DNA from: a virus
Strand: one strand, 5' to 3'
Length of the DNA stretch: 27,758 bases
Virus record (IMG/VR): IMGVR_UViG_3300045051_001514
Coordinates: 1-27,758 of that record
In this document: one piece after another, positions 1,347 to 20,192 of the stretch
Layout: each line of letters opens with the position of its first letter
Position numbering within the stretch: position 1 is the stretch's first letter
Made by a program: the position numbers and the translations under genes
The notes under the pieces: generated by a model
Database searches by the model: none
The model's input: only the letters and a program-made list of their open reading frames with translations
Told to the model about the DNA's origin: nothing

Positions 1347-3432
1347 AGACTGGCGCAGCGCGGCACTGTGGGCGGCCGAGGCCAAGGCGCTCGGCATCGA
1401 CCGCAAGATCATGCCCCACAGCGAGCGCAATGTCCGCGAAAAGGCCGACCGCGAGTCGTGGCCCTTCCGCGAGCGTCAGCAGAGCGGTGGCGGCCGGGAA
1501 TACCCGTTGTCCGCCCTGCCGGCCGCCTTGAAGAAGGCGCTGGCCAACCAGGTGGTCAAGGTGGAGAAGCCGTTGCCGCCGGCGCAGCTGGACCTGGCGC
1601 TGCCCCGCATCGAGGACATGAAGGACTACCAGAAGAAGCCGCTGGAGGCCCGCGCCGTCCTGCTGGCCGAACTGGACCGTATGGTGCTGACCGGCCACAA
1701 GCTGACCCACGCCATGCAAGCGATGGCGGCGGCGGCGGCCAGGGGCGAGCTGGCCCCCGAGCTGCAACGCCTGGTGCCCATCGCCAACGCCCGGTCGGGC
1801 GACGGCCGCGCCCTGTCGGTGCGCTCGCTGAAGCGGTGGCTGTCCGACCGCCGCCGCGCCGGCGGCAAGGTCGAGGCGCTGGCGCCCAAGGCGGTGCCCG
1901 AGGCGCCGGTGCAGAAGTGGGCGGCGACCTTCATGCGGCTGTACTGCCGGCCGATGAAGCCGACCATCACCGAGGTGCTGGAGGATTTGTGGCCGGCGGG
2001 CGAGGCCAAGCCCAGCTACGACCAGGCCAAGCGCTTCCTGCGCCGGGTCGACGCCATCACCAAGTCCAAGGGCCGCCTGGGGCCGAAGGCGTTGCAGACC
2101 ATGAAGGCGTACACCGCCCGCGACGTGTCGGAACTGTGGCCGGGCGCGGTGTTCATCGGCGACGGCCACACCCACAAGTCCCGGGTGGCACACCCCATTC
2201 ACGGCGGCCCGTTCCGCCCCGAGGTGACGGCGATCCTGGACGTGTACACCCGCAAATGGGTGGGGTGGTCGGCGGCGCTGGCGGAAAACACCTGGGCGGT
2301 GGCCGATTCCCTGCGGCACGCGCTCACCACCACCACCTGCTGCGACATCTTCTATTACGACAATGGCTCGGGCGCCAACAACAAGACCTGGGACGACGAT
2401 TGCACCGGCATGGCCGCCCGCCAGGGCTTTACCAAGCTGAACAGCGCCCCGTGGTCGAGCCAGGCGCGCGGCATCATCGAACGCTTCCATTCGTCGGTGC
2501 TGCACCGAGTGGCGCGGCGCAGCATCTCCTATGTCGGCCAGCGCATGGACGACGAGGCCCGGCAACGGGTCTACAAGCTGACCGAGCAGCACATCAAGGA
2601 ATCCGGCCAGTCGCCGCTGCTGCCCAGCTGGGCCGACTTCATCGCCGAGATCGACGCCGAGATGGAGCGGTACAACACCCGTCCCCATGACGGCTTGCCG
2701 AAGATCATCGACCCGGCCACCGGCAAGCGGCGGCACATGACGCCGAACGAGGCGTGGGACAAGGCTGTCGCCGATGGCTGGACGCCCGATCCGCTGTCAG
2801 CCGAGGACGCGCGGACCCTGTTCCGCCCTGCGGTGCGCCGCAAGGTCAGCCGCGAACTGGTGTCGTGGGCGGGCAACGACTATCACGCACCCGAGTTGGA
2901 GACCCTGCACGGCGAATGGGTGATGGTCGCCTACGACATCCACGACGCCACCAGCGTCAGCGTGTCGCTGCTGGATGGCCGCCATGTGTGCGAGGCCAAG
3001 TGGGACGGCCACAAGACCAGCTATGTGCCGGTCACCTTCGCCCAGTCCGCCCACGAGAAGCGGGTGGCCAACCGCCTGAAGCTCAACGACAGGCGGCGCG
3101 ACAAGATCATGCTGGAGGCCGGGCCGACCCGCACCATCGAGCATCAGCCTGCGGAAACCTTCACCCCTGAAATCCTTCAGGCGGCCGAGGCGGAGTATGT
3201 GCGGCTGGAAACGAAGGCGGCGGCGACGGATCAAGTTCCCATCCGCATGGCGGGTGGCCGTCCGACCTTCGCCGACGACGTCTCGTGGGCCAGATGGGTC
3301 CTGGAAAACCCACAAGACGCCCTCGACGAGGATCGCAGCGAACTGCGGCGAAAACTGCGCAACCGCAGCTTCCGGATGCTGCTGGAGGTGCAAGGACTGG
3401 ACGTTGGCGCGCTCTCAGCCCTTGCCGCTTAA
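1339..3432 (+). CDS. A: Mu-type DDE transposase (MuA-like)
   Basis: This 697-residue protein carries out DNA cutting and strand transfer for integration and replicative transposition. MuA is 663 residues. Residues about 1-75 resemble the Mu-type N-terminal DNA-binding domain (REKADRESWPFRERQQSGGG, then EYPLSALPAALKKAL). Residues 194-238 match the Igamma-like end-binding segment. The catalytic core carries the triad D275 (in GDGHTH), D341 (in YYDNGSG) and E381 (in GIIERFH), spaced much as MuA D269, D336 and E392. A Mu C-terminal beta-barrel follows from about 495 to 560. The last 120 residues should contact the MuB-like ATPase. The start is the ATG at 1339 overlapping the previous stop; the in-frame extension upstream to 1255 lies inside the preceding ORF. 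A copy of the 16-bp palindrome lies inside codons 610-615. Confidence 0.96.
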   Translation: MIEDWRSAALWAAEAKALGIDRKIMPHSERNVREKADRESWPFRERQQSGGGREYPLSALPAALKKALANQVVKVEKPLPPAQLDLALPRIEDMKDYQKKPLEARAVLLAELDRMVLTGHKLTHAMQAMAAAAARGELAPELQRLVPIANARSGDGRALSVRSLKRWLSDRRRAGGKVEALAPKAVPEAPVQKWAATFMRLYCRPMKPTITEVLEDLWPAGEAKPSYDQAKRFLRRVDAITKSKGRLGPKALQTMKAYTARDVSELWPGAVFIGDGHTHKSRVAHPIHGGPFRPEVTAILDVYTRKWVGWSAALAENTWAVADSLRHALTTTTCCDIFYYDNGSGANNKTWDDDCTGMAARQGFTKLNSAPWSSQARGIIERFHSSVLHRVARRSISYVGQRMDDEARQRVYKLTEQHIKESGQSPLLPSWADFIAEIDAEMERYNTRPHDGLPKIIDPATGKRRHMTPNEAWDKAVADGWTPDPLSAEDARTLFRPAVRRKVSRELVSWAGNDYHAPELETLHGEWVMVAYDIHDATSVSVSLLDGRHVCEAKWDGHKTSYVPVTFAQSAHEKRVANRLKLNDRRRDKIMLEAGPTRTIEHQPAETFTPEILQAAEAEYVRLETKAAATDQVPIRMAGGRPTFADDVSWARWVLENPQDALDEDRSELRRKLRNRSFRMLLEVQGLDVGALSALAA
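1918..2050 (+). repeat. Direct repeat, copy 2 (inside transposase gene)
   Basis: The parental segment within the transposase gene, encoding residues 194-238, to which 1200-1329 is homologous. It is assigned as the parent because it sits in the expected domain order of a full MuA-like protein. Confidence 0.9.
3166..3181. repeat. 16-bp palindrome CCTGAAATCCTTCAGG, copy 1
   Basis: A perfect 6-bp inverted repeat around ATCC, inside the 3' part of the transposase gene (codons for PEILQ). The same 16 bases recur at 11250-11265 and 18910-18925. No T-run follows, so it is not a terminator. It may be a regulatory site about 290 nt upstream of the MuB-like gene. Confidence 0.85.
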
Positions 3433-9813: not shown

Positions 9814-10467
9814 ATGACCAACCCCGATCCCCGCCGCCAGTTGCTGGCGAAAATCCACATGGGCAAGGCCGCGCTCGGCATGGCTGAGGACGACTACCGT
9901 GCGCTGCTGGGACGCATCGCCGGCGCCGCCAGTGCCGCCGATCTCCGCGTGCCCCAGCTGGCGGCGGTGGTCGAGGAGTTGAAGCGTCTGGGCTGGGCCG
10001 ACAAGCCCAAGGCGCCCAAGCGCGCGGGCAACCGGCCCCAGGCCGGCGACCCGCAATCGGCCAAGATCAGGGCGTTGTGGCTGGCGCTCTATCACCTTGG
10101 CGAAATCGCCAACCCCGAGGAGGTGTCGCTGGCGGCCTTCGCCAAGCGTCAGACCGGCGTCGACGCCCTGCAATTTCTAACGGTGTATCAAGCCCGAAAG
10201 GTGACCGAGGTGCTCAAGTCCTGGTGCGCCCGTATCGGCTATCAGGTGCCCAGCGACAAGCCACTGCTGGCCAAGGTGCTGCTGGTGCGCGCCCAGTGGG
10301 CCAGACTGATCACCGCCGGCGCCGTCGACCCCGGCCAGTCGCTCGGCGACTGGCTGTCCGGCATCGGCCTGGCCGTGCCGGTCAACCTGATGTCCATGGC
10401 CCAGCTCGACCACGCCGCCGAGGCGCTGGGAAAGCGGGTGCGGGCGATGCGGAGCAACACCAAGTGA
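9814..10467 (+). CDS. gemA: GemA-like regulatory protein (DUF1018)
   Basis: A 217-residue protein of the GemA/DUF1018 family. In Mu, GemA alters host gene expression and DNA supercoiling. The N-terminus shows the family motif RRQLLAKIHMGKAALGMAED followed by DYRALLGRI. The centre has SAKIRALWLALYHLGEIANP, and the later part has FAKRQTGVDALQFLTVYQAR and KVTEVLKSWCARIGY. It lies at the end of the early operon directly before the Mor-like gene, as gemA does relative to mor in Mu, and overlaps it by GTGA. The exact molecular action of the family is not firmly established. Confidence 0.87.
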   Translation: MTNPDPRRQLLAKIHMGKAALGMAEDDYRALLGRIAGAASAADLRVPQLAAVVEELKRLGWADKPKAPKRAGNRPQAGDPQSAKIRALWLALYHLGEIANPEEVSLAAFAKRQTGVDALQFLTVYQARKVTEVLKSWCARIGYQVPSDKPLLAKVLLVRAQWARLITAGAVDPGQSLGDWLSGIGLAVPVNLMSMAQLDHAAEALGKRVRAMRSNTK

Positions 10468-10865
10468 ACGACAACGTCGTCTCTTACGCGGTGATCGCCG
10501 GCCTGATCGGCGAGGCCAAGGCACTGGAGCTGTCGAAAAAACGCGGCGGCCGCGCGCTTTACATCCCGTCGCCGGAGCGCCTGGGCCCCACCACCCCGGT
10601 GGTCGCCATGCTCGGTCCGGATGTGGCCGAAAAACTGGCGGCGCGCTTCGGCGGTACCCATATCGACGTGCCGCTGGGTCCGGGGAAACGCGCACGGATA
10701 TGGGAACTGCGTGAGGGTGGCAAGAGTATCAGCGCCATCGCCGGGGTGATGAACTGCACCGAGCGTACCGTCTATTACATCCTGTCCGGCCCCCGGCCCA
10801 AGGCACTGGGCGCGCCGCCGGCAAGCGAACTGCCGCCGCTGCTGGCGTTCATCGCCAAGCGGTGA
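10464..10865 (+). CDS. mor: Mor/C-family middle or late transcription activator
   Basis: This 133-residue protein starts at the GTG at 10464, overlapping the gemA-like stop by 4 nt. It matches the Mor family: GGRALYIPSPERLG (residues 28-41) corresponds to the 'GGGQVYIPRG' dimer segment of Mu Mor, and the C-terminal HTH is ARIWELREGGKSISAIAGVM followed by NCTERTVYYILSG (about 77-109). Mu Mor is 129 residues. In Mu, Mor turns on the middle promoter and its homologue C turns on four late promoters. Only one Mor/C-type gene is visible in this window, so this protein may do both jobs. The palindromes at 11250 and 18910 are candidate targets (inference). Confidence 0.85.
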   Translation: MNDNVVSYAVIAGLIGEAKALELSKKRGGRALYIPSPERLGPTTPVVAMLGPDVAEKLAARFGGTHIDVPLGPGKRARIWELREGGKSISAIAGVMNCTERTVYYILSGPRPKALGAPPASELPPLLAFIAKR

Positions 10866-10956: not shown

Positions 10957-11142
10957 ATGGAACACCCAGGCGTCGTGGCTGACGGAGCATCCACTGTCAT
11001 GAACGGTCGTTCTCAGGTTGAGGCGATGGCGGATAAAGCCGCCAGTTATGCGACGGCGGCAATGTGGTGCCTGATAGTAGCTGCTGGCGCTACTGTCGTT
11101 AAGGCGGTGGCCGTGTTGTCGCCCCTCCTCAGCAGCCCCTAA
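10957..11142 (+). CDS. Small predicted single-pass membrane protein
   Basis: A 61-residue ORF with the best ribosome binding site of the region (AAGGAG, 5 nt before the ATG). The first half is polar. Residues about 32-57 form one hydrophobic segment (YATAAMWCLIVAAGATVVKA, then VAVLSPLL), interrupted by one lysine. It stands alone between the possible middle promoter and the lysis genes, where Mu carries its C gene. It may be a pinholin-like or lysis-timing protein, or a middle gene of other function. No family was recognised. Confidence 0.5.
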   Translation: MEHPGVVADGASTVMNGRSQVEAMADKAASYATAAMWCLIVAAGATVVKAVAVLSPLLSSP

Positions 11143-11290
11143 ACCCGGGGCCTGATGGCAAATCAGAGTGGCGAGTTCCTGAAGTTTTGCCGGTTGATCG
11201 CCGCCGCCATCCGCTGCAAGATCGCGCAGGACAGCCGGTTTTGGGCTCACCTGAAATCCTTCAGGCCTGAAAACCACAAGGGGTAATTGC
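11143..11290 (+). other. Structured non-coding stretch before the lysozyme gene
   Basis: This stretch holds two short stem-loops near its start. GCCCC/GGGGC spans the preceding stop codon, and CTGAT/ATCAG flanks GGCAA (11152-11166). The 16-bp palindrome follows at 11250-11265. A 43-codon ORF (11155-11286, MANQSGEFLK...) is open across it but has only a poor start site. I regard the stretch as regulatory first. Confidence 0.45.
11250..11265. promoter_or_regulatory. 16-bp palindrome CCTGAAATCCTTCAGG, copy 2 (before lysozyme)
   Basis: This copy is identical to those at 3166-3181 and 18910-18925. Here it is directly followed by CCTGAA, so TTCAGGCCTGAA (11260-11271) forms a second, perfect 12-bp palindrome. 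TAATTG at 11284-11289, about 29 bp downstream of its centre, could act as a weak -10. That arrangement would suit an activator-dependent late promoter like Mu Plys (inference). Confidence 0.6.
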
Positions 11291-11322
11291 ACCCTCAGGG
11301 ATAGTCATCCCTGGGGGTTTTT
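11291..11322 (+). terminator. Rho-independent terminator-like hairpin at lysozyme start
   Basis: A 12-bp stem (11291-11302 pairing with 11307-11318, one G-U pair) with loop AGTC, followed by a run of five T ending 2 nt before the lysozyme ATG. It could end the middle transcript. The G-run in its right arm (11313-11317) is also the only plausible ribosome binding site for the lysozyme gene, so the hairpin may also hide that site. Confidence 0.75.
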
Positions 11323-11323
11323 C

Positions 11324-11875
11324 ATGCCCGACACTCCGTTTATGACGCTCATCGACAGCCTGATCGGCCGCGAGGGCGGTTACAGCAACAATCCGTCCGA
11401 TGCTGGTGGCGAAACCATGTGGGGCATTACCGCCACCACGGCCCGCGCCCATGGCTATTCCGGCCCCATGGCCGCCATGCCGCGCCAGATCGCGGTCGAG
11501 ATCTACCTGCAGCGTTACGTCATCGACCCCGGCTTCGGCCAGGTACATGCGCTGTCTCCCCGCCTGGCCGAGGAACTGGTGGACACCGGCGTCAACATGG
11601 GACCGAAATTCGCCACCACCACCCTGCAACGCTTCCTCGCCGCGCTCAACCGCCAGGGTCGCGACTATCCCGACCTGACGGTCGATGGCGTACTGGGGGC
11701 GGCCACCCTATCCGCTCTCAAGACGTTCCTCGCCCAGCGCGGCCCACGCGGCGAACAGGTGCTGCTCGCCGGCCTCAACTGTGTCCAGGGTGCCCGCTAC
11801 CTGGAACTGGCCGAAAGCCGGCCCGCCAACGAGGATTTCCTGTTCGGCTGGCTCAACGCCCGCGTGGCCGGCTGA
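11324..11875 (+). CDS. lys: Endolysin, glycoside hydrolase family 108
   Basis: A 183-residue lysozyme-like enzyme that cuts peptidoglycan at the end of the lytic cycle. The GH108 signature is at the N-terminus: LIGREGGYSNNPSDAGGETM, then WGITATTARAHGY, with E17 as the expected catalytic glutamate. The C-terminal half matches the peptidoglycan-binding part found in this family (LTVDGVLGAATLSALKTFLA, then NEDFLFGWLNARV). No signal peptide is seen, so release should need the holin encoded downstream. It is the first late gene, as in Mu. The start at 11324 sits right behind a terminator-like hairpin. Confidence 0.92.
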   Translation: MPDTPFMTLIDSLIGREGGYSNNPSDAGGETMWGITATTARAHGYSGPMAAMPRQIAVEIYLQRYVIDPGFGQVHALSPRLAEELVDTGVNMGPKFATTTLQRFLAALNRQGRDYPDLTVDGVLGAATLSALKTFLAQRGPRGEQVLLAGLNCVQGARYLELAESRPANEDFLFGWLNARVAG

Positions 11876-11887
11876 GGGGGAACCGAC

Positions 11888-12151
11888 ATGCACCTGATCA
11901 TCGCCATCGCCTATGGCGTCATCGCCATTACCGCCACCGCCATCGGCTTCGTCGTGCTGCCGTGGGCCACCGCCGCACTCACGCTGGGGGCCGCGGCTCT
12001 CGCCTGGGCCCTGGTCGGCGGCCTGTACATCAAGGAAACCGAGAACGGCGAAGCCTTCAGCGGCGCCGGCATCCTGATCATCATCCAGATGACCGTGCTC
12101 ACCCTGTCCGGCCTGACCTTGCTGGGCCTCGGCGCGCTGTGGGGGGCGTGA
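11888..12151 (+). CDS. Small membrane protein of the lysis cassette
   Basis: An 87-residue, very hydrophobic protein, 12 nt after the lysozyme gene with a GAGGGGGA site. Three hydrophobic stretches are visible: residues about 2-24 (LIIAIAYGVIAITATAIGFV), 28-47 (TAALTLGAAALAWALVGGLY) and 60-84 (GILIIIQMTVLTLSGLTLLG). The loop between the last two carries IKETENGEAFS. A place beside the lysozyme and the 3-TM holin suggests a holin or antiholin role, but no family was recognised. Confidence 0.65.
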   Translation: MHLIIAIAYGVIAITATAIGFVVLPWATAALTLGAAALAWALVGGLYIKETENGEAFSGAGILIIIQMTVLTLSGLTLLGLGALWGA

Positions 12152-12762
12152 TGGACATCACCTGGTCCGACGTCGGCGACGTCCTCAAGAAGGCCGCCCC
12201 CATCGCCGCCGGCATCCTTACCGGCGGCACCTCGACCGCCATCACCACGGTGGCCGGCCTGGTCGCCTCGGCGCTGGGCTGCGATCCGACCCCGGAGGCC
12301 GTCCAACAAGCCATCCAATCCGACCCGCAGGCGCCGTTCAAGCTGGCCGAGCTGGAGGCCAATCACCGCCGCGACATGGCAGCGCTGGCGCTGCAAGCCC
12401 GCGCCAACGAACTGGCGGCCGACACCGCCCGGCTGGCCGAAATCAATGCCACCATGCGGACTGAATCCGCCTCGGAAAAGTGGTGGGTGTCCGGCTGGCG
12501 CCCGTTCTGGGGATTCGTCTCGGGGCTGGCCTTCGCTTTCACCGCCGGTCAGGTCTGCTGGCTCGGTTTCCGGGCGGTCAGCGGCGGCAACCAGGACGCC
12601 ATGCGCATGGTGCCCGATCTGGTCAGCGCCATGGCCATGCTGTTCGCCATCCCCGGCGCCATCCTCGGCGTCGCCAGCTGGCATCGCGGCAAGGAGAAGC
12701 GGCTGCGCGCCGGCGAGCCGGTCGGGCCCGGCCTGCTCGCCTCGGTCATGGGGGGCAAATAA
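12151..12762 (+). CDS. 3-TM holin (GTA-type)
   Basis: A 203-residue protein whose ATG shares a base with the preceding TGA. Residues about 15-45 are a hydrophobic, Gly/Ala-rich first segment. A long charged helix (AELEANHRRDMAALALQARA and onward) leads to KWWVSGWRPFWGFVSGLAFA, a hallmark of the 3TM holin family also used by gene transfer agents, and to a last membrane segment around LVSAMAMLFAIPGAILGVAS. The tail is basic. Holins let the lysozyme reach the wall. The family assignment is by pattern; function is inferred from the family and from position. Confidence 0.82.
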   Translation: MDITWSDVGDVLKKAAPIAAGILTGGTSTAITTVAGLVASALGCDPTPEAVQQAIQSDPQAPFKLAELEANHRRDMAALALQARANELAADTARLAEINATMRTESASEKWWVSGWRPFWGFVSGLAFAFTAGQVCWLGFRAVSGGNQDAMRMVPDLVSAMAMLFAIPGAILGVASWHRGKEKRLRAGEPVGPGLLASVMGGK

Positions 12763-13157
12763 TGGGGGAGTGGCTTCTCAAATGGTGGCCCATCATCGGC
12801 TCTCTGTTCGGCACCGTGATCAGCATCCTGGTGGGCTGGATCGCGTGGTCGGCCAAAAAGCAGTTCGTCACCCACGACGACTTCACCGCTTTCCGCGACG
12901 AACACTCGGCGGAGCACGGGAAAATCGACGCCGCCCTCGCCAACGGCGATGCGGAATTCCGCGTCATCCGCACCCGGCTGGAGAACCTGCCGAGCCGGCA
13001 GGAGATCGAGGAGACGGTCGGCCGCGCGGTCGCGCCCTTGGCGGTGTCGATCGAGGCGGTGAAGACCTCGACCGATGGCATCCAGGAACTGTTCCAGACC
13101 CTCTTGAATCACGAACTCGCCGAGGCCCGCCAGGCCAAGGCCAAGGGGAACTTGTGA
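12762..13157 (+). CDS. DUF2730 protein (Mu gp25-like)
   Basis: A 131-residue protein starting at the ATG at 12762, which overlaps the previous TAA. One N-terminal membrane segment (residues 8-29, WWPIIGSLFGTVISILVGWI) is followed by a long, mostly helical soluble part with coiled-coil character (DDFTAFRDEHSAEHGKIDAA, then EFRVIRTRLENLPSRQEIEE). This layout is that of DUF2730, found at the same place in Mu-like phages (Mu gp25). It may work as an inner-membrane lysis accessory such as a spanin-like part, but this is not shown. Confidence 0.78.
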   Translation: MGEWLLKWWPIIGSLFGTVISILVGWIAWSAKKQFVTHDDFTAFRDEHSAEHGKIDAALANGDAEFRVIRTRLENLPSRQEIEETVGRAVAPLAVSIEAVKTSTDGIQELFQTLLNHELAEARQAKAKGNL

Positions 13158-13753
13158 TGGACATCATCGAACGTCTTTCCAGCCACGTCCGCCTCGCCAT
13201 CCTGCTGTCGCTGATGGAGGAGCCGGTCGAGGAACGCCTGCGCTACGCCTGCTTGCGTATCCTGTCCCGCATCCCCGGCCGCGCCGGCACCGCCAGCTTC
13301 CTGGAAGAGGTGCTGCCCGATTATGGTTTCGAGGTGACGCGCGACCAGGTGGTGGCGGCGCTGGCCTGGTGCCATCGCTCGCGCCTGGTGGCGATGTCAG
13401 AGGACGACGGCGTCATCGGTGCCCTGGTGCTCGATCTCGGCCGCGATGTCGCCGCCGGCAAGGTCACGGTGCCCGACGTGGCACCGGCGCCGACCGCGAC
13501 CTGGCTGCAGGACAATCTGTCGGCCAAAAGCCTGCGCCAGTCGCAGGACGAGGTGACCGAGCAGTTATCCTGGCTGGGCGAACGCAAGCTGGTGCGGTGC
13601 GACGGCGGCGGCGACGTCCTGGTGGTCATGCTGACCCGCCAGGGCCGCGACGTGGTGCTGGGCCGCGCCGAGGTCGCGGGCGTTAAATCGCCGTCGTCCA
13701 GCACCATCATGCGGCTGGCGTCTAACGCCGCCCGCGACCGTCTGGGCGGCTGA
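13157..13753 (+). CDS. gp26-like (VpaChn25_0724) protein with internal duplication
   Basis: A 198-residue protein with an ATG that overlaps the previous TGA. Family members usually hold one winged-helix-like unit in about 100 residues. Here residues 60-112 (TRDQVVAALAWCHRSRLVAM, ending GRDVAAGKVTVPDV) and residues 128-182 (SQDEVTEQLSWLGERKLVRC, ending GRDVVLGRAEVAGVKSP) are clearly related to each other. The protein thus looks like a tandem duplication of the unit. The N-terminal helices RLRYACLRILSRIPGRAG belong to the first copy. The function of Mu gp26 is unknown. It sits directly before the gp27-like gene, as in Mu. Confidence 0.8.
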   Translation: MDIIERLSSHVRLAILLSLMEEPVEERLRYACLRILSRIPGRAGTASFLEEVLPDYGFEVTRDQVVAALAWCHRSRLVAMSEDDGVIGALVLDLGRDVAAGKVTVPDVAPAPTATWLQDNLSAKSLRQSQDEVTEQLSWLGERKLVRCDGGGDVLVVMLTRQGRDVVLGRAEVAGVKSPSSSTIMRLASNAARDRLGG

Positions 13754-13754
13754 T

Positions 13755-14255
13755 ATGGCCCGCCCGCCCGAGGAAAAGCGCGCCGTCCGCGACGCCTACG
13801 TCGTCGACAAGCTGGAGCTGGCCCAGGCCGCCGCCCGCGCCGGCGTGCCGTTCGACACCGCCCGCAAGTGGAAGGCCACGGCCGCCGGCGCCGGCGACGA
13901 CTGGGACAAGGCCCGCGCCGCCCACAGCCTGACCAGCTCGGGCGCCGGCACCATCGCCCAGCTGGTGCTGCATGACTTCCTGATCATGTACCAGGCCACC
14001 GTCGACGGCGTGAAGGAAGCCGAGGGCATGGCGGCCAAGGACAAGGCCGAGACGCTGTCCCGCCTGGCCGACGCTTTCCAGAAGACCATGAGTGCCGTTG
14101 CCAAGGCGGCACCCGAACTGGGCCGCTATGCGGTGGCCACTGAGTTGATGGCCGACCTTGCCGAGTTCGTCGCCAAGCGTTTCCCCCAGCACCGCGCTGC
14201 CTTCATCGAGCTGCTGGAACCGTTCGGCGCCTACGTGTCCCAGAAATACGGCTGA
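13755..14255 (+). CDS. DUF1804 protein (Mu gp27-like, putative small terminase)
   Basis: A 166-residue protein starting 1 nt after the previous stop. Residues 1-45 form a HTH-like unit (AVRDAYVVDKLELAQAAARA, then GVPFDTARKWKATAA), followed by a long helical part with GTIAQLVLHDFLIMYQATVD and TLSRLADAFQKTMSAVAKAA. This is the DUF1804 pattern of Mu gp27. Its position just before the large terminase supports a small-terminase, DNA-recognition role (inferred from the family and context). Confidence 0.87.
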   Translation: MARPPEEKRAVRDAYVVDKLELAQAAARAGVPFDTARKWKATAAGAGDDWDKARAAHSLTSSGAGTIAQLVLHDFLIMYQATVDGVKEAEGMAAKDKAETLSRLADAFQKTMSAVAKAAPELGRYAVATELMADLAEFVAKRFPQHRAAFIELLEPFGAYVSQKYG

Positions 14256-14259
14256 CGCC

Positions 14260-15912
14260 ATGGCCAGGGGTGCCAAAGCGAAAAAGGAGGAATTCCTCAA
14301 GGCGCTGGCCGAGATCGCAGCCGAGCAGCGCCGCCTGATCGAAACCGAATGTCCGGGCTTCGACATGGACCCGGCCGCTTCGGCCGCACGCCGGGCCAAG
14401 GCGCTCGGCGATGACGACGACGCCTTCAAGTTCTTCTGCCAGACCTACTTCCCGCATTACATCAAGGGCGAGGCGAGCGCCTTCCACGCCTGGCTGTTCG
14501 TCCATTTGCCCCTGGTCGCCCGGGCGCCGGACGGCAAGCGCGAGCTGATCGCGGCGCCGCGCGGCAATGCCAAGTCCACCGTGGTGACGCTGTTGTTTAC
14601 GGCCTGGTGCATCCTGAAGCGCCTCAAGCGCTTCCCGGTCATCCTGTCCGACACCTTCGACCAAGCCGCCGTCCACCTGCAGGCGCTCAAGTCCGAGCTG
14701 GAGTTTAACCCGCGCCTGTCCGCCGACTTCCCCGACGACGTCGGCCAGGGGCCGGTGTGGCAGGCCGGCGAGGTCGTCTGTGCCAACGGCGCCAAGGTGA
14801 AGATCGGCGGCTCGTGCAAGGCCCTGCGCGGTTTCCGCCATGGTGCCCAACGCCCAGATCTAGTCATCGCCGACGACCTGGAGAACGACGAGAACGTTCA
14901 GAACCCGGACCAGCGCAACAAGCTGGAGAAGTGGATCGACAAGACGGTGGAGCCGCTGGGGCCGCCCGACGGGTCCATGGACCTCATCTGGGTGAACACC
15001 TTCCTACATTTCGACGCCGTGGCCATGCGTAAGTCGCGCAATCCCATGTGGCGGACAAAAATCTTCCAGGCCGTGCTGCAATGGCCCGACCGCATGGATT
15101 TGTGGGAGGAATGGGAAGGCATCCTGCGCAATAGCGACCACGAGATCGCCGAGGCGCTGGCCGACCAGTTCTATGCCGAGCACCTGGCCGAGATGCTGGC
15201 CGGCAGCAAGGTGCTGTGGCCGGCAGTGCAGTCTCTGGTCAAGCTGATGAAGATTCGCGTCCGCATCGGCGACGACGCCTTCAGCTCGGAATACCAGAAC
15301 CAGCCTATCGACGGCGATGCCCAGATGTTCGCCAAGCTGACCTTTTGGGTCTCGCAACTGGCGGAGTGGGTGTTCGTCGGCGCCTGCGACCCAAGCTTGG
15401 GCAAGGCCAACAAGCGTAACGACCCCAGTGCTATTGGCGTCGGCGGCTTCAACCGCTCCACCGGCATCCTGGACGTGGTCGAGGCGTCGATCCGCCGCCG
15501 CGTCCCCTCGGTGATCATGTCCGATATCGAAGCACTGCAGCGCGAATACCGCTGCCTCAAGTGGGGCGTGGAAACCGTCCAGTTCCAGGCCTTCTTCGCC
15601 GAACAGCTGGTCAAACAGAGTGCTATCCGAGGCACCCCAATCCCAATGGTGCCGATCCAGTCGACAATCGAAAAGGCGCTGCGCATCGAAAGCCTGGAGC
15701 CACACGTCCGCAACGGACTGATCCGCCTGCACCACAGCCAGTCCGTGATGCTGGAACAACTGCGCTTCTATCCCCAGCACCCCCATGACGATGGCCCCGA
15801 CATGCTGGAGATGCTGTGGCAGATGGCACAGAGCATCCGTTCGGGTACCGGTGCCGTCCGCACTGGCGGGACACGCACCGCTACCGCCAACAACCTCCGA
15901 GGCTACCGTTGA
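14260..15912 (+). CDS. Terminase large subunit (Mu gp28-like)
   Basis: A 550-residue packaging motor and nuclease. The ATG at 14260 follows the junction TGACGCC. The ATPase part has an atypical Walker A, APRGNAKST (residues 99-107, K105), common in this terminase branch, and a Walker B, DLVIADDLE (200-208, D205/D206). The nuclease part begins at VFVGACDPSLG with D377 as a likely metal ligand; later acidic residues (SDIEAL and HDDGPDMLEM) fit a RuvC/RNase H-like fold. In Mu the enzyme cuts host DNA beyond the prophage end and fills heads. Length and gene order agree with Mu gp28. Confidence 0.93.
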   Translation: MARGAKAKKEEFLKALAEIAAEQRRLIETECPGFDMDPAASAARRAKALGDDDDAFKFFCQTYFPHYIKGEASAFHAWLFVHLPLVARAPDGKRELIAAPRGNAKSTVVTLLFTAWCILKRLKRFPVILSDTFDQAAVHLQALKSELEFNPRLSADFPDDVGQGPVWQAGEVVCANGAKVKIGGSCKALRGFRHGAQRPDLVIADDLENDENVQNPDQRNKLEKWIDKTVEPLGPPDGSMDLIWVNTFLHFDAVAMRKSRNPMWRTKIFQAVLQWPDRMDLWEEWEGILRNSDHEIAEALADQFYAEHLAEMLAGSKVLWPAVQSLVKLMKIRVRIGDDAFSSEYQNQPIDGDAQMFAKLTFWVSQLAEWVFVGACDPSLGKANKRNDPSAIGVGGFNRSTGILDVVEASIRRRVPSVIMSDIEALQREYRCLKWGVETVQFQAFFAEQLVKQSAIRGTPIPMVPIQSTIEKALRIESLEPHVRNGLIRLHHSQSVMLEQLRFYPQHPHDDGPDMLEMLWQMAQSIRSGTGAVRTGGTRTATANNLRGYR

Positions 15913-17459
15913 CCACCGACACCCCCGCCGCTACCCCGGCGCCCGTGCTGCGCCGGGAAATCGCCTCCGCCCGTCGCGACATCCTGCAGCCGGTCTTCGG
16001 CAACCTGATGCGCCCGACCGACGACGTCCTCATCCAGCAGGGCGGCGGCAAGGGCCTGAAGATCTACGAGGAGCTGGAGCGCGACCCGCTGCTCTATGCG
16101 GTCATTCAGAAGCGCAAGCTCGCCCTGGTGGCGCGCGACTGGGTGGTCGAGCCGGGCGGCCCGCGTCGGGAGGACCGCAAGGCGGCCGAGCTGGCCGAGC
16201 GGGTGCTCAACGGCGAATGGGGCCTGTCCTTCGACAAGGTCTGCATCGACCTGCAGGACGCCATCCTCAAGGGTTACGCCGTAGCCGAAATCATCTGGGA
16301 CACGATCGACGGCTTCATCGTGCCGCGCGAAATTAAACCGAAGGATCAGCGGCGCTTTGTCTTTAGCGCCGAGGGCGAACTGCGCCTGCTGACCTGGGAG
16401 GCCATGGCCGAGGGCGAGGAACTGCCCGAGCGCAAATTTCTGGTCCACCGCTTCGGCGACAAGACCGGCGACCCCTACGGTCGTGGCTTGGGGCACCAAG
16501 CGTTCTGGTGGGCCTATTTCAAACGCATGGTCGTCCAGTTCTGGCTGGTGTTTGCCGAGAAGTTCGGCAGCCCGACCGTCAAGGGCGAATACGATCCCCA
16601 GGTCGTCGGGGAAAAGGAACAGGATGAGCTGCTGGCCACCCTGTCCAGCTTGGCGCAGCAGGGCGCCATCACCCTGCCCAAGGGCACCGAAGTCGGCTTA
16701 CTGGAGGCTCTGCGTTCCGGCACCGTCACCTATCCCGAGCTGGTCGATTACTGCGACCGCATGATCATGCTGGCCGTGCTGGGCAACACGCTCACCACCT
16801 CCGAAGGCAATGCCGGCAGCCGGGCGCTGGGCCAGGTCCACGCCAGCGTCGAGGACACCATCGTCGACGCCGACGCGGACCTCCAGGCCGCCACGCTGAA
16901 TAGCCAGCTGCTGGCCTGGCTGACCTGGTTCAATTATCCCGACGCCCGGCCGCCCCGGGTGGAGCGCCCGCGCCCAACCGAGGAGATGGCCGAGGCCAAG
17001 CTGCAGCAGGAGCAAATCAAGTCAAACGCCGATGCCCTGGGCCACGTCCTGGCCATGCGCAATGCCGGTTATGAGCCCGAGGACCCCAAAGCCAGCGTGG
17101 TGGAGCAGGCGCTCGGCTCATGGACCTATGTCGGCAAGTCTCCAGAGGTGGCGAACCTGCCACCACTCGACCAGATCGCGCTGGCGGCTCCGGTGTCGCA
17201 GGCGCAGGGTGGTGGCGCTGATCCGTCCGGAGTCCGCGACCTGGTCGATCATTTGGACCAGGCCGCCGGCGGCGCCATGGATGCGCTGATCGGTCGGGTG
17301 CGTGCCATGCTCGACCGGGTCGAGACGCTGGAAGAGGCCCAGGTGGCCTTGGCCGACATCTATCCCGAACTGGACACGTCGGATCTAGCGCTGGTGATCG
17401 GCCGGGCCCAGGCGCTGGCCAATCTGACCGGCCGCGTGGATATCGCCGATGGGCACTGA
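15909..17459 (+). CDS. Portal protein (DUF935, Mu gp29-like)
   Basis: A 516-residue portal protein, the ring through which DNA enters and leaves the head. The start is taken as the TTG at 15909 (TTGA overlap), preceded by GAGG (15898-15901); an ATG at 15816 in frame is too far inside the terminase gene. DUF935 features include RDPLLYAVIQKRKLALVARD, then DWVVEP, FDKVCIDLQDAILKGYAVAE, IIWD, and the loop PYGRGLGHQAFWWAYFKRMV. The part LAVLGNTLTTSEGNAGSRAL is strongly typical. The C-terminal 100 residues are helical and vary among phages. It overlaps the F-like gene by 11 nt. Confidence 0.94.
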   Translation: MTTDTPAATPAPVLRREIASARRDILQPVFGNLMRPTDDVLIQQGGGKGLKIYEELERDPLLYAVIQKRKLALVARDWVVEPGGPRREDRKAAELAERVLNGEWGLSFDKVCIDLQDAILKGYAVAEIIWDTIDGFIVPREIKPKDQRRFVFSAEGELRLLTWEAMAEGEELPERKFLVHRFGDKTGDPYGRGLGHQAFWWAYFKRMVVQFWLVFAEKFGSPTVKGEYDPQVVGEKEQDELLATLSSLAQQGAITLPKGTEVGLLEALRSGTVTYPELVDYCDRMIMLAVLGNTLTTSEGNAGSRALGQVHASVEDTIVDADADLQAATLNSQLLAWLTWFNYPDARPPRVERPRPTEEMAEAKLQQEQIKSNADALGHVLAMRNAGYEPEDPKASVVEQALGSWTYVGKSPEVANLPPLDQIALAAPVSQAQGGGADPSGVRDLVDHLDQAAGGAMDALIGRVRAMLDRVETLEEAQVALADIYPELDTSDLALVIGRAQALANLTGRVDIADGH

Positions 17460-18699
17460 GGTCAACGGCGCGCCGCTGGCCTTCCAAGAGGCCATCGACT
17501 ACCACACGAACAAGCTGGCGCTGCCGTCCAAGGCCTGGACGGATATCTGGGGCCGCGAACACGGGCGCGGCTTCATCGTCGCCGGCGCCGCCACCGACGA
17601 CTTGGTGACCGGCTTCCACGAGGCCATCGGCAAGGCGCTCAAGGACGGCCGCACCTTGACCGACTTCCGCAAGGATTTCGACCGCCTGGTCACCGAACAC
17701 GGCTGGAGCTACAACGGCTCGCGCGGCTGGCGCTCGGCCGTCATCTACAACACCAATCTGTCGCAGGCGTACAGCGCCGGGCGTTGGGAACAGGGCAAGA
17801 GCCTGCCCGACGCCGTCGGTCGCTACCGGCATAACTCCGGCGCCCATGAGCGCAAGGAACACGCGGCGTGGAACGGTATCACCCTGCCGCTGGGGCATTC
17901 ATGGTGGGGTACTCACTGGCCCATCAACGCCTGGGGCTGTCACTGCCAGGTGGACATCCTGTCGTGGCGGGCGGCGCGGGCGGCGGGCTGGGACGTTTCG
18001 GACGATCCGTCACCGGACGAGATGGTCACCAAGACCGTCAACACCCCCCAGGGGCCGAGGACGGTCACGGTGCCCAAGGGCATCGATCCGGGGTTCGACT
18101 ACAATCCCGGCGAGGCGGCGTTCGGCCACCGCCTGAACGACCAGGTCATGGAAAACTGGCGAAAGGAGGGGCGCAAATACGAGCGGCTGACCGCTGGCGA
18201 CTGGGTCAGCGCCGGCCGCCCGGAGCGGGTGCCTGCCGATAATCCGGTCGCCAAGCTGGGACAAGCCGCCACGTCGAAGGCGGACATGGTGAAGATGGTT
18301 CGGGAAACCATCGGCGGCGTGGAGCGGATATACAAACTGCCGGACGGCAGCCGGGTGTTGGTGGACGCGGTCAGCCTGGGCAATCACCTGGCCAAGGATT
18401 TAGCCCGAGGCTCCTTCCTGCCGTTCCTGCAGGAGGTGATCGAGCAGCCGTTCGAGGTCTGGATGTGCTTCGAGCGTCACCCGGCCACCGGAAAGGTCGA
18501 ACTGCGCCGGCGCCTGGTCAAGGTGCTGGAGTTGGGCGACAAGAACCGTCCGCTGGTCTTCACCGCGCAGGTCAAGCAGGGGCGGCTGGAGGACTATACC
18601 TTCCATCCGGTGCGGAACATCAACCGCGAGCGGCAAGGGAAACTGGTGTGGGGAAGACCTCTCACCGAAGCGGCCGGTGGAGGACCGGGCGATGGTTGA
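17449..18699 (+). CDS. F: F-like minor head protein fused to a PBECR-type nuclease domain
   Basis: A 416-residue protein. Residues about 30-185 are the Mu F / SPP1 gp7 minor head domain: IYNTNLSQAYSAGRWEQGKS (99-118), then RYRHNSGAHERKEHAAWNG, and the WGCHCQV signature with C164/C166. In Mu the F protein (gp30) acts in head assembly. Residues about 275-410 form a second domain: VRETIGGVERIYKLPDGSRV, FEVWMCFERHPATGKVELRR and VFTAQVKQGRLEDYTFHPVR. This resembles the PBECR class of barnase/EndoU/ColE5/RelE-like nucleases that phages attach to head proteins. Nuclease activity is inferred; catalytic residues were not assigned. A non-coding gap follows. Confidence 0.85.
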   Translation: MGTEVNGAPLAFQEAIDYHTNKLALPSKAWTDIWGREHGRGFIVAGAATDDLVTGFHEAIGKALKDGRTLTDFRKDFDRLVTEHGWSYNGSRGWRSAVIYNTNLSQAYSAGRWEQGKSLPDAVGRYRHNSGAHERKEHAAWNGITLPLGHSWWGTHWPINAWGCHCQVDILSWRAARAAGWDVSDDPSPDEMVTKTVNTPQGPRTVTVPKGIDPGFDYNPGEAAFGHRLNDQVMENWRKEGRKYERLTAGDWVSAGRPERVPADNPVAKLGQAATSKADMVKMVRETIGGVERIYKLPDGSRVLVDAVSLGNHLAKDLARGSFLPFLQEVIEQPFEVWMCFERHPATGKVELRRRLVKVLELGDKNRPLVFTAQVKQGRLEDYTFHPVRNINRERQGKLVWGRPLTEAAGGGPGDG

Positions 18700-18992
18700 C
18701 AGGGCCGTTCCCGACCATCGCCTTCGTTGACCCGATTTTAGCGCCGCCAGCCGCGAAAGACAATTCCGCCGGGGCGAGCTAGTCCGAAAGGGAGACACCC
18801 CCCGTTAGACCCCCGTTAGAGGACGGCGGCGGGGCCATTGGGTCAACAGGGGTGGACAGTATCGGCGACAGGGGGCATGGTGTGGGCCTTCCCGACCAAA
18901 CGGCCCGGACCTGAAATCCTTCAGGGTTAATCCCATGGCCGCCTGCCCATAGGCTTCAACGCATGGTCCAACGACCCATGCGGGGAAGTCCT
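18700..18992 (+). promoter_or_regulatory. Late intergenic region before the protease gene
   Basis: About 290 nt without a convincing gene, by far the largest gap in the late operon. It holds an 11-nt tandem repeat CCCCCGTTAGA twice (18799-18820), an 8-bp inverted pair GTTGACCC/GGGTCAAC (18726-18733 and 18840-18847), and the 16-bp palindrome at 18910-18925. CATAGG (18948-18953) is a weak possible -10 about 33 bp past the palindrome centre. In Mu the same place, between G and I, carries the PI late promoter and the strong gyrase site near the genome centre. Confidence 0.5.
18910..18925. promoter_or_regulatory. 16-bp palindrome CCTGAAATCCTTCAGG, copy 3 (before protease)
   Basis: A third exact copy of the palindrome, 67 nt before the preferred GTG start of the protease gene. 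Its place matches the Mu PI late promoter. No T-run follows, so it is not a terminator. Confidence 0.6.
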
Positions 18993-20192
18993 GTGTCCGA
19001 CAACGTCACCATCACCGACATCGATATCCTCAAGCCCGGCACCTACTGGGATGCCAGCGGCAACAAGGTCGTGGTGACTGCCGCCGACGTGGCGGAACTG
19101 GCGGCGGCGTATGAGCCCGAGCTGCAGGACGCGCCGGCCGTCGTCGGCCATCCCAAGATCAATCATCCCGCCTATGGCTGGATGCGCAACCTGCGCGTCG
19201 ACGGCGACGTGCTGCTGTGCGACCTGGTCGACGTCGACCCCGAATTCGCCGACACCATCAAAGCCAAACGCTACAAGAACCGCTCGCTCGCCTATTTCGG
19301 CCGCACCAGCAAGGGCAACCCCAAGCCGGGCAAGCTGTACCCCAAGCATCTCGGCTGGCTGGGCGCCAAGGCGCCGGCGGTCAAAGGGCTCAAGGAAATC
19401 GCGCTCTCCGCCGACGACGAGGCCATCGTTATCGAACTGGCGTCGCCGTCCTGGTCGTGGCGCCTGAATTACGCGCTGCGCACCATCGCCGATACCTTCC
19501 GCCGCCAGCGTGAAGCCGCCATTGCCGACGGTGGCGTCGACGCCGGTGACCGGCTGATCCCGGCTTTCGTCATCGACGAACTGACCAGCGCCGCCAACCA
19601 GATCGACGCCGACATCGCCGCCGAGGCTGACACCGCGTCCGCCCATTTCGCATCCCCCGACAACCAAGGAGGCCAGATGGCCACGCCCGAAGAGATCGCG
19701 GCCCGCGAAGCCGCGCTTGCACAAAAGGAGGCCACCCTGGCCGCCCGCGAAAAGTCCATCGGTGACAAAGAGGTCGCCCTGGCCGCCGCCGAAACCACCG
19801 CTCGGCGCAAGGACGATGCCGAGCTGGTGGACAAGCTGATCGGCGAGGGCCGCCTGCGCCCGACCGAGAAGAACGATGTCCTGGCCGAGCTGGCGGCGCT
19901 CGACGACGTCGACACCACCATCGAGCTGTCTTCCCCCGATGGCGCCAAGGTCACCCTGACCCCGCGCGACGCCCTGCGCCGCCGCCTGTCCGCCAGCCCC
20001 AAGCTGGTCGCCCTTGGCGCCCATCCCGACAAGGGCGGCCCCGGCGCCGACGGCATCATCGAGTTCGCCGCGCCCGATGGCATGAGCGTGGACGCCGACC
20101 GCTTGGCCCTGCACCAGCGCGCCCTGGCCTACCAGACCGCCCACCCCAACACCGACTACATCGCCGCCGTGCGCGCGGTGTCCAAGCCGTAA
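18993..20192 (+). CDS. I: Head maturation protease with scaffold tail (Mu I-like)
   Basis: A 399-residue protein if started at the GTG at 18993, which has GGGGAAG (18982-18988) before it; ATGs at 18963 and 18978 are alternatives without a clear site. Residues about 5-150 match the Mu I protease: DILKPGTYWDASGNKVVVTA, then DAPAVVGHPKINHPAYGWMR, and KAKRYKNRSLAYFG, which carry the conserved His and Ser positions of this family (roles from the family, not proven here). After a linker comes a scaffold-like coiled coil from residue 229. The protease should cut the scaffold during head maturation. Confidence 0.9.
   Translation: MSDNVTITDIDILKPGTYWDASGNKVVVTAADVAELAAAYEPELQDAPAVVGHPKINHPAYGWMRNLRVDGDVLLCDLVDVDPEFADTIKAKRYKNRSLAYFGRTSKGNPKPGKLYPKHLGWLGAKAPAVKGLKEIALSADDEAIVIELASPSWSWRLNYALRTIADTFRRQREAAIADGGVDAGDRLIPAFVIDELTSAANQIDADIAAEADTASAHFASPDNQGGQMATPEEIAAREAALAQKEATLAAREKSIGDKEVALAAAETTARRKDDAELVDKLIGEGRLRPTEKNDVLAELAALDDVDTTIELSSPDGAKVTLTPRDALRRRLSASPKLVALGAHPDKGGPGADGIIEFAAPDGMSVDADRLALHQRALAYQTAHPNTDYIAAVRAVSKP
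19677..20192 (+). CDS. Z: Nested scaffold protein (Mu Z-like), internal start in the I gene
   Basis: An internal ATG at 19677 in the frame of the protease gene has a full AAGGAGG site (19666-19672), which is unusual inside a coding region. It would make a 171-residue protein equal to the C-terminal part of the protease. It begins with a long coiled coil (ATPEEIAAREAALAQKEATL, then AAREKSIGDKEVALAAAETT) and ends in a conserved tail (ALAYQTAHPNTDYIAAVRAV). In Mu, the scaffold gpZ is made from the 3' part of gene I in the same way. Confidence 0.82.
   Translation: MATPEEIAAREAALAQKEATLAAREKSIGDKEVALAAAETTARRKDDAELVDKLIGEGRLRPTEKNDVLAELAALDDVDTTIELSSPDGAKVTLTPRDALRRRLSASPKLVALGAHPDKGGPGADGIIEFAAPDGMSVDADRLALHQRALAYQTAHPNTDYIAAVRAVSKP

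Follow-up and report, generated by a model that had tools for sequence, protein, structure and literature searches.

Paired palindromes as predicted operators of Mor/C-type late promoters in a Mu-like prophage fragment and its relatives

Results

The locus and the three copies of the palindrome

The DNA analyzed here (the window) is the entire IMG/VR record IMGVR_UViG_3300045051_001514, a 27,758-base fragment of a Mu-like prophage whose gene content includes transposase A and B, a Mor-like gene (mor), a lysozyme of glycosyl hydrolase family 108 (GH108), the Mu portal and F proteins, a head protease, sheath and tube. Its 16-base-pair (bp) element CCTGAAATCCTTCAGG is the subject of this study, and two of the three copies are predicted to be the activator-binding sites of late promoters. 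Exact copies are located at 3166-3181 (copy 1), 11250-11265 (copy 2) and 18910-18925 (copy 3), every one of them a CCTGAA-N4-TTCAGG palindrome (dyad) with the central ATCC in the same orientation. No other 16-mer occurs three times in the window. A window search tolerating up to 3 mismatches returned zero matches to CCTGAAATCCTTCAGG beyond these three, and in 100 dinucleotide-preserving shuffles the matches averaged 0.10 and never numbered three. This confirms the claim of three exact palindromic copies without near copies that was originally made in a sequence-only reading of this DNA.

The same reading had assigned copies 2 and 3 to the positions of the Mu promoters Plys and PI, which is borne out, as the two lie immediately before the lysis and protease genes (the dyads, the tandem element, the -10-like hexamers, the hairpin and the mor, lysozyme and protease genes are all on the plus strand). 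Copy 2, the predicted activator-binding dyad of a Plys-type late promoter, scored 40.5 with a promoter weight matrix for which the maximum in shuffled sequence was 11.2. It is directly followed by a degenerate tandem element, CCTGAAAACCACAAGG (11266-11281), the third-best match in the window (17.7), and, 24 nucleotides (nt) past the dyad, by a -10-like hexamer CACCCT (11290-11295) in a position that is fixed across phages. The first late gene under copy 2 (11324-11875) encodes the lysozyme, composed of a GH108 and a peptidoglycan-binding domain (Pfam PF05838, E 1.4e-20). Copy 3, the predicted activator-binding dyad of a PI-type late promoter (matrix score 49.2), is followed at the same distance of 24 nt by the -10-like hexamer TAGGCT (18950-18955) and by the gene for a head maturation protease similar to Mu I (18963-20192; PHROG 976, E 3.2e-84), whose translation more likely begins at the in-frame GTG at 18993 than at the ATG at 18963. 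No sigma-70 promoter was found at copy 2 or copy 3 by a consensus scan, as would be expected of activator-dependent promoters. Two small reading frames (10957-11142 and 11155-11286), one of them probably membrane-spanning, are present between mor and the lysis promoter; this insert is absent from close relatives, and copy 2 is located inside its second frame.

The gene at 10464-10865, starting with GTG, encodes a 133-residue Mor/C-like late transcription activator, an assignment made from PHROG 836 (late transcriptional activator, E 1.3e-18), the Pfam family Mor (PF08765) and the relatives of the protein. The Pfam match (25.0 bits versus a cutoff of 24.9) is marginal alone, and 13 of 14 relatives match this family. 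The relatives are 66-74% identical to the window protein, and the nearest chromosomal genes are those of Paramagnetospirillum caucaseum and a Magnetospirillum genome. Profile comparisons gave hits to the Mor structure 1rr7 (E 0.001) and to Mu C (9l0x, E 0.015; Mu C entries in the PDB are 9l0x and 9vw8). As far as found, this is the one Mor/C-type gene of the window. Its recognition helix contains CTERTVYYIL, with Tyr104 as the predicted base-reading residue.

Paired dyads in relatives of the prophage

Relatives were sought by an exact scan of viral contigs for the 16-mer, which returned 42 stretches, mostly unrelated but including some Mu-like ones, and Mor relatives with their surroundings were collected across the order (317 genomes) and the class (385 genomes). 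Scans of viral contigs for Mor relatives with single proteins returned none; a query with a four-sequence alignment succeeded. The window itself and G003 were picked up because of the 16-mer.

The arrangement seen in the window, in which one copy precedes the lysis genes and another is situated between F and the protease, recurs in G001, G002, G003, G005 and G006. Conservation in related Mu-like prophages, a check suggested in the sequence-only reading, was found for copies 2 and 3 at corresponding places. Copy 3 in particular is kept at the same place in G001, G002, G005 and G006. In G001 there are two exact copies of the 16-mer, one following mor and the other following F. The portal and F proteins of G001 are only ∼30% identical to those of the window while its Mor is 72% identical, which argues that the site travels with Mor and not with the capsid genes. 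In G002 the exact 16-mer precedes the protease gene, CCTGAAGTTCTTCAGG precedes the lysis genes, and the sequence CATAGGCT at the hexamer of copy 3 is conserved at the -10 distance although the spacer has diverged. The two corresponding places in G003 are occupied by CCTGAACCCCTTCAGG and CCTGAACGCCTTCAGG. In G005, which was found through its protease, CCTGAAATCCCTCAGG immediately precedes the protease gene and two degenerate tandem copies stand before the lysis genes, a pair comparable to copy 2 with CCTGAAAACCACAAGG. In genome G143, the exact 16-mer of a remnant prophage lies just upstream of mor, with TAACCT 24 nt after it; a protease-like gene follows mor.

The arrangement could be followed beyond the CCTGAA type of site. 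Many Mor loci have a 13-18 bp dyad within ∼100 nt of the end of mor, with a same-arm partner at 4.7-13 kb (mostly 6.6-8.7 kb). Sites were called in 39 Mor/C-bearing prophages, with the dyad just after mor or before a lysis gene; a matching downstream copy is usual, and it precedes the protease gene wherever the latter was located. The arms vary among phages (CCTGAA, CCGGAA, CCGGAC/CGGACA, CCTGAC, CCCGAC, GGTGAC, GGCGCA) and match within each phage. Repeated dyads with identical 6-bp arms were present in 17 of 37 regions following mor, against 6.8% for random anchors placed within these sequences (p 6e-11).

Promoter geometry and comparison with known phages

With 49 sites aligned on the dyad centre, 13 have a TANNNT hexamer beginning at an offset of exactly 32 nt (17 at offsets 31-33), and nearly all other scanned offsets have 0-1 occurrences. 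The relaxed pattern YANNNT is found at offset 32 in 26 of the 49, CANNNT accounting for many of the sites that lack TANNNT. The 27 sites found later (held-out) gave 7 with TANNNT and 17 with YANNNT at this offset. If the -10 box begins at -12, the dyad centre of the window promoters is at -44.5. In Mu, the 16-bp dyad bound by the Mor protein spans -51 to -36 (centre -43.5) and replaces the -35 box of the promoter Pm (PMC4287176, PMC4390567), as is predicted for the window. Pm precedes and drives C, whereas the site of the window type usually follows mor and is predicted to drive the late genes directly.

The annotated late promoters Plys, PI and PP of Mu, used as a positive control, have a CATAA half-site, exactly 24 nt, and then TAGACT, CAAACT and TATCCT, respectively. 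They share with the window promoters the same places in the genome, an activator site directly upstream, the 24-nt spacing between the dyad and a weak T/CANNNT -10 box, and the lack of a -35 box. In the window, the only Mor/C homologue found lies just upstream of the late promoters. A counterpart of PP is not seen as the window ends: in Mu, the distance from the end of C to PP is 16.9 kb, and the window stops at this same distance past mor, where a copy for the P gene would lie. A candidate third copy is provided by G007, with a third exact dyad at +15.1 kb.

Two other phages provide further comparisons. In the cultured phage RcapMu of Rhodobacter capsulatus, CCGGACCTGTGTCCGG has just two occurrences, one after mor and the other before the protease gene. 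As in the window, a Mor/C-like gene is followed by a perfect dyad, and an identical dyad precedes the protease. Unlike the window, the half-site is CCGGAC, the recognition position is occupied by Arg, and a T-run follows the dyad; the hexamers 24 nt past the dyads (AGAGGT and AAGGGT) are weaker -10 matches. The identical CCCCCGGACCTGTGTCCGGGGGTTTTGC at 13949 and 22370 of RcapMu (L322) is also terminator-like, and the site may serve both purposes there. The Pseudomonas phage B3 (L323) has exactly three TTTCG-N6-CGAAA dyads, at 11567, 19836 and 26819, before lysis, protease and tape-measure genes, the last being another candidate third copy. B3 differs from the window in that mor is far to the left on the other strand, the arm spacing is different and the -10 box is not clear. 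These dyads are probably late promoters of Beetrevirus.

Covariation of the site with the Mor recognition helix

Sequence distances of the C-terminal helix-turn-helix (HTH) region of Mor correlate with those of the half-sites (Mantel r 0.48, p 2e-4) more strongly than do distances of its N-terminal half (r 0.17). The residue examined within this region, the one following the conserved Val of the recognition helix, was compared with base 3 of the half-site in 39 phages. An association was noticed post hoc in the first 25, where Tyr, Phe or Trp occurred with T, Arg with G and Gln with C without exceptions, and was then tested on 14 more. In the latter, Tyr occurred with T (3 of 3), Glu with C (3 of 3), and His and Lys with T (one each); Arg occurred with G in L133, L227 and L230 and with T in L228, while the base opposite Arg in L252 and Gln in L264 depends on the register. 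The Mor tree implies a minimum of 7 changes at base 3. Overall, the comparison points to a strong association, with shared ancestry partly controlled, that is not a strict code; by this association, Tyr104 of the window protein probably reads T at base 3.

Interpretation of copies 2 and 3 and alternative explanations

Taken together, these comparisons suggest that copies 2 and 3 are very probably the operator elements of Mor/C-type late promoters, P_lys and P_I. The Mor/C-like protein encoded at 10464-10865 by the last gene of the early operon would bind CCTGAA-N4-TTCAGG as a dimer and, positioned near -44.5, would substitute for the -35 box; host RNA polymerase would then initiate from the weak CACCCT and TAGGCT starting 24 nt after the palindrome. 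We infer binding, activation, the dimeric state and the residue-base contact from sequence comparison. Binding of this protein at copies 2 and 3, as proposed in the sequence-only reading, is thus strongly supported on comparative grounds, namely the Plys/PI position, the Mu-type geometry and the covariation.

A number of observations weigh against this interpretation. The CCTGAA-N4-TTCAGG dyad is unlike the C site of Mu, with its CATAA half-site. The AlphaFold model of the Mor-like protein, with a predicted local distance difference test score (pLDDT) of 73 and a Foldseek E of 0.48 to 1rr7, is too weak to establish the Mor fold. About half of the Mor-bearing loci are without a confident repeated dyad (some contigs being short and some sites imperfect), and a weight-matrix scan of 24-26 kb beyond mor revealed no third promoter in the three close relatives G001, G005 and G006. 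L228, with its Arg-T pair, violates the residue-base association, and a tree-based independent-pairs test was underpowered, with too few supported branches. A strict one-residue code was rejected due to L228 and the dependence of L252 and L264 on the register.

The dyads could alternatively be intrinsic terminators that end the mor and F operons. They are indeed located at operon ends, T-runs follow the dyads of RcapMu and L125, and terminators are predicted in Mu immediately ahead of Plys and PI. On the other hand, the stem in the window is just 6 bp (-5.7 kcal/mol) without a T-run, the window copies were not listed by a terminator scan, and at least 5 T within the next 8 nt are found at just 2 of the 49 sites. 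The real terminator-like hairpin is a separate structure (11291-11318, see below). The presence of the dyad before the lysis gene of B3, where mor is distant and on the other strand, argues against its role as a mere mor terminator. Termination would also leave unexplained the fixed -10 spacing, the sequence identity within each phage and the covariation with the Mor helix, which makes this explanation very unlikely. We consider equally improbable the control of the late genes through binding of another phage regulator, such as a c-repressor or a Ner-like protein, at the dyads: several further small frames of the early region could, judging by their sequence, encode regulators, but the site tracks the Mor HTH, and in G001 the Mor gene rather than the structural genes, and its geometry equals that of the Mu activators Mor and C.

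A chance origin of the 16-mer, or its identity with a repeat common in chromosomes or of the uptake type, could be suggested by its isolated exact occurrences in the 42 stretches of IMG/VR DNA, the majority of which are from unrelated phages. However, the pattern of its arms has 0 occurrences in the two Magnetospirillum-type genomes (4.9 and 3.5 Mb) that bear the closest chromosomal mor genes. In the 317 genomes of the order there are mostly 0-2 occurrences per genome (3-9 in a few), similar to a reversed control pattern. The concern that the 16-mer might be common in host chromosomes could thus be dismissed, and with both position and -10 box kept in relatives, a repeat or chance origin is already refuted for copies 2 and 3 and is exceedingly improbable for the 16-mer in general.

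A hairpin at the lysis promoter

A 12-bp hairpin with a T-run (11291-11318; -21.5 kcal/mol, stem p 0.005), which was matched as terminator-like, overlaps both the -10 hexamer of copy 2 and the leader of the lysis gene. The -10 region pairs with the leader over the ribosome-binding site of the lysis gene at 14 of 38 lysis promoters versus 1 of 35 protease promoters (Fisher p 3e-4); a stricter test that ties the hairpin to the start codon gave a weaker difference (12 of 32 versus 3 of 23, p 0.07). The hairpin sequences differ between phages. Similar hairpins were observed at the lysis promoters of G001, G002, G005, G006, L116, L119, L126, L135, L138, L139 and L146. Read-through RNA from the early operon would form the hairpin and hide the start of the lysis gene, while RNA initiated at the late promoter would be devoid of its 5' arm. 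The hairpin is a possible lock against early lysis. Gene e of phage T4 is under similar control.

The copy within the transposase gene

Copy 1 (3166-3181) is a bare dyad inside the reading frame of transposase A (codons T-PEILQ-A). It has no -10 box on either strand, and its matrix scores (2.1 forward, 6.1 reverse) do not exceed the shuffle maximum, whereas copy 2 reached 40.5 and copy 3 reached 49.2. None of 54 relatives of A has the dyad at this place, which falls in the variable C-terminal part of the protein where PEILQ is not conserved. The idea that this copy couples transposition to late expression, advanced in the sequence-only reading, is not supported by these data.

A functional Mor/C site with such a role (as a roadblock, decoy or early shut-off) would account for an exact 16-mer that is improbable by chance (the arms are expected 0.0007 times in the window) and for additional arm-perfect copies of a phage's own dyad inside genes, two in L136 (at -7693 and -5992 from the end of mor) and one in G003 (at +13674), all without a -10 box; with copy 1, these make 4 extra copies versus 0.065 expected in 26 phages. 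On the other hand, the window and G003 were selected via the 16-mer and 3 of the 4 extra copies encode P-E-x-L-Q, in addition to the missing -10 box, the noise-level matrix scores and the lack of conservation. Overall, the coupling role is unlikely: copy 1 is not a promoter, and may be either a coincidence or a non-productive binding site.

Two other features of the window were observed in passing. A 140-base stretch of the transposase gene (about 1925-2065) is partly duplicated upstream at 1189-1325 (82% identity). At its C terminus, the Mu F-like protein (17449-18699) has a domain of the PBECR2 nuclease type (Pfam E 1.4e-15), possibly a phage-borne toxin domain.

Implications for transposable phages

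The kind of promoter described here is known from Mu. Its sequence in these phages, its spread and the covariation between activator and site appear undescribed, as the literature searched contained no description of any of the three. For transposable phages in general, we give about an even chance to a broader model in which the late regulon would be marked by a phage-specific palindrome read by one Mor/C protein, with base 3 of the half-site largely set by a single helix residue (aromatic with T, Arg with G, Glu or Gln with C), and in which the -10 region of the lysis promoter would often double as the 5' arm of a hairpin by which read-through RNA conceals the ribosome-binding site of the lysis gene. 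If this model is true, a change of specificity in an activator is accompanied by one in its two or three promoters, and late regulons are predictable from sequence.

The analysis provides predicted late promoters, together with a predicted activator, for many Mu-like phages of Alphaproteobacteria, none of which were described in the literature searched. It also offers a sequence rule for locating such promoters, namely paired dyads, each with a -10 box at 32 nt from its centre. The covariation, in turn, could be tested as a rule of recognition in the Mor/C family, a family treated just in Mu by the literature searched.

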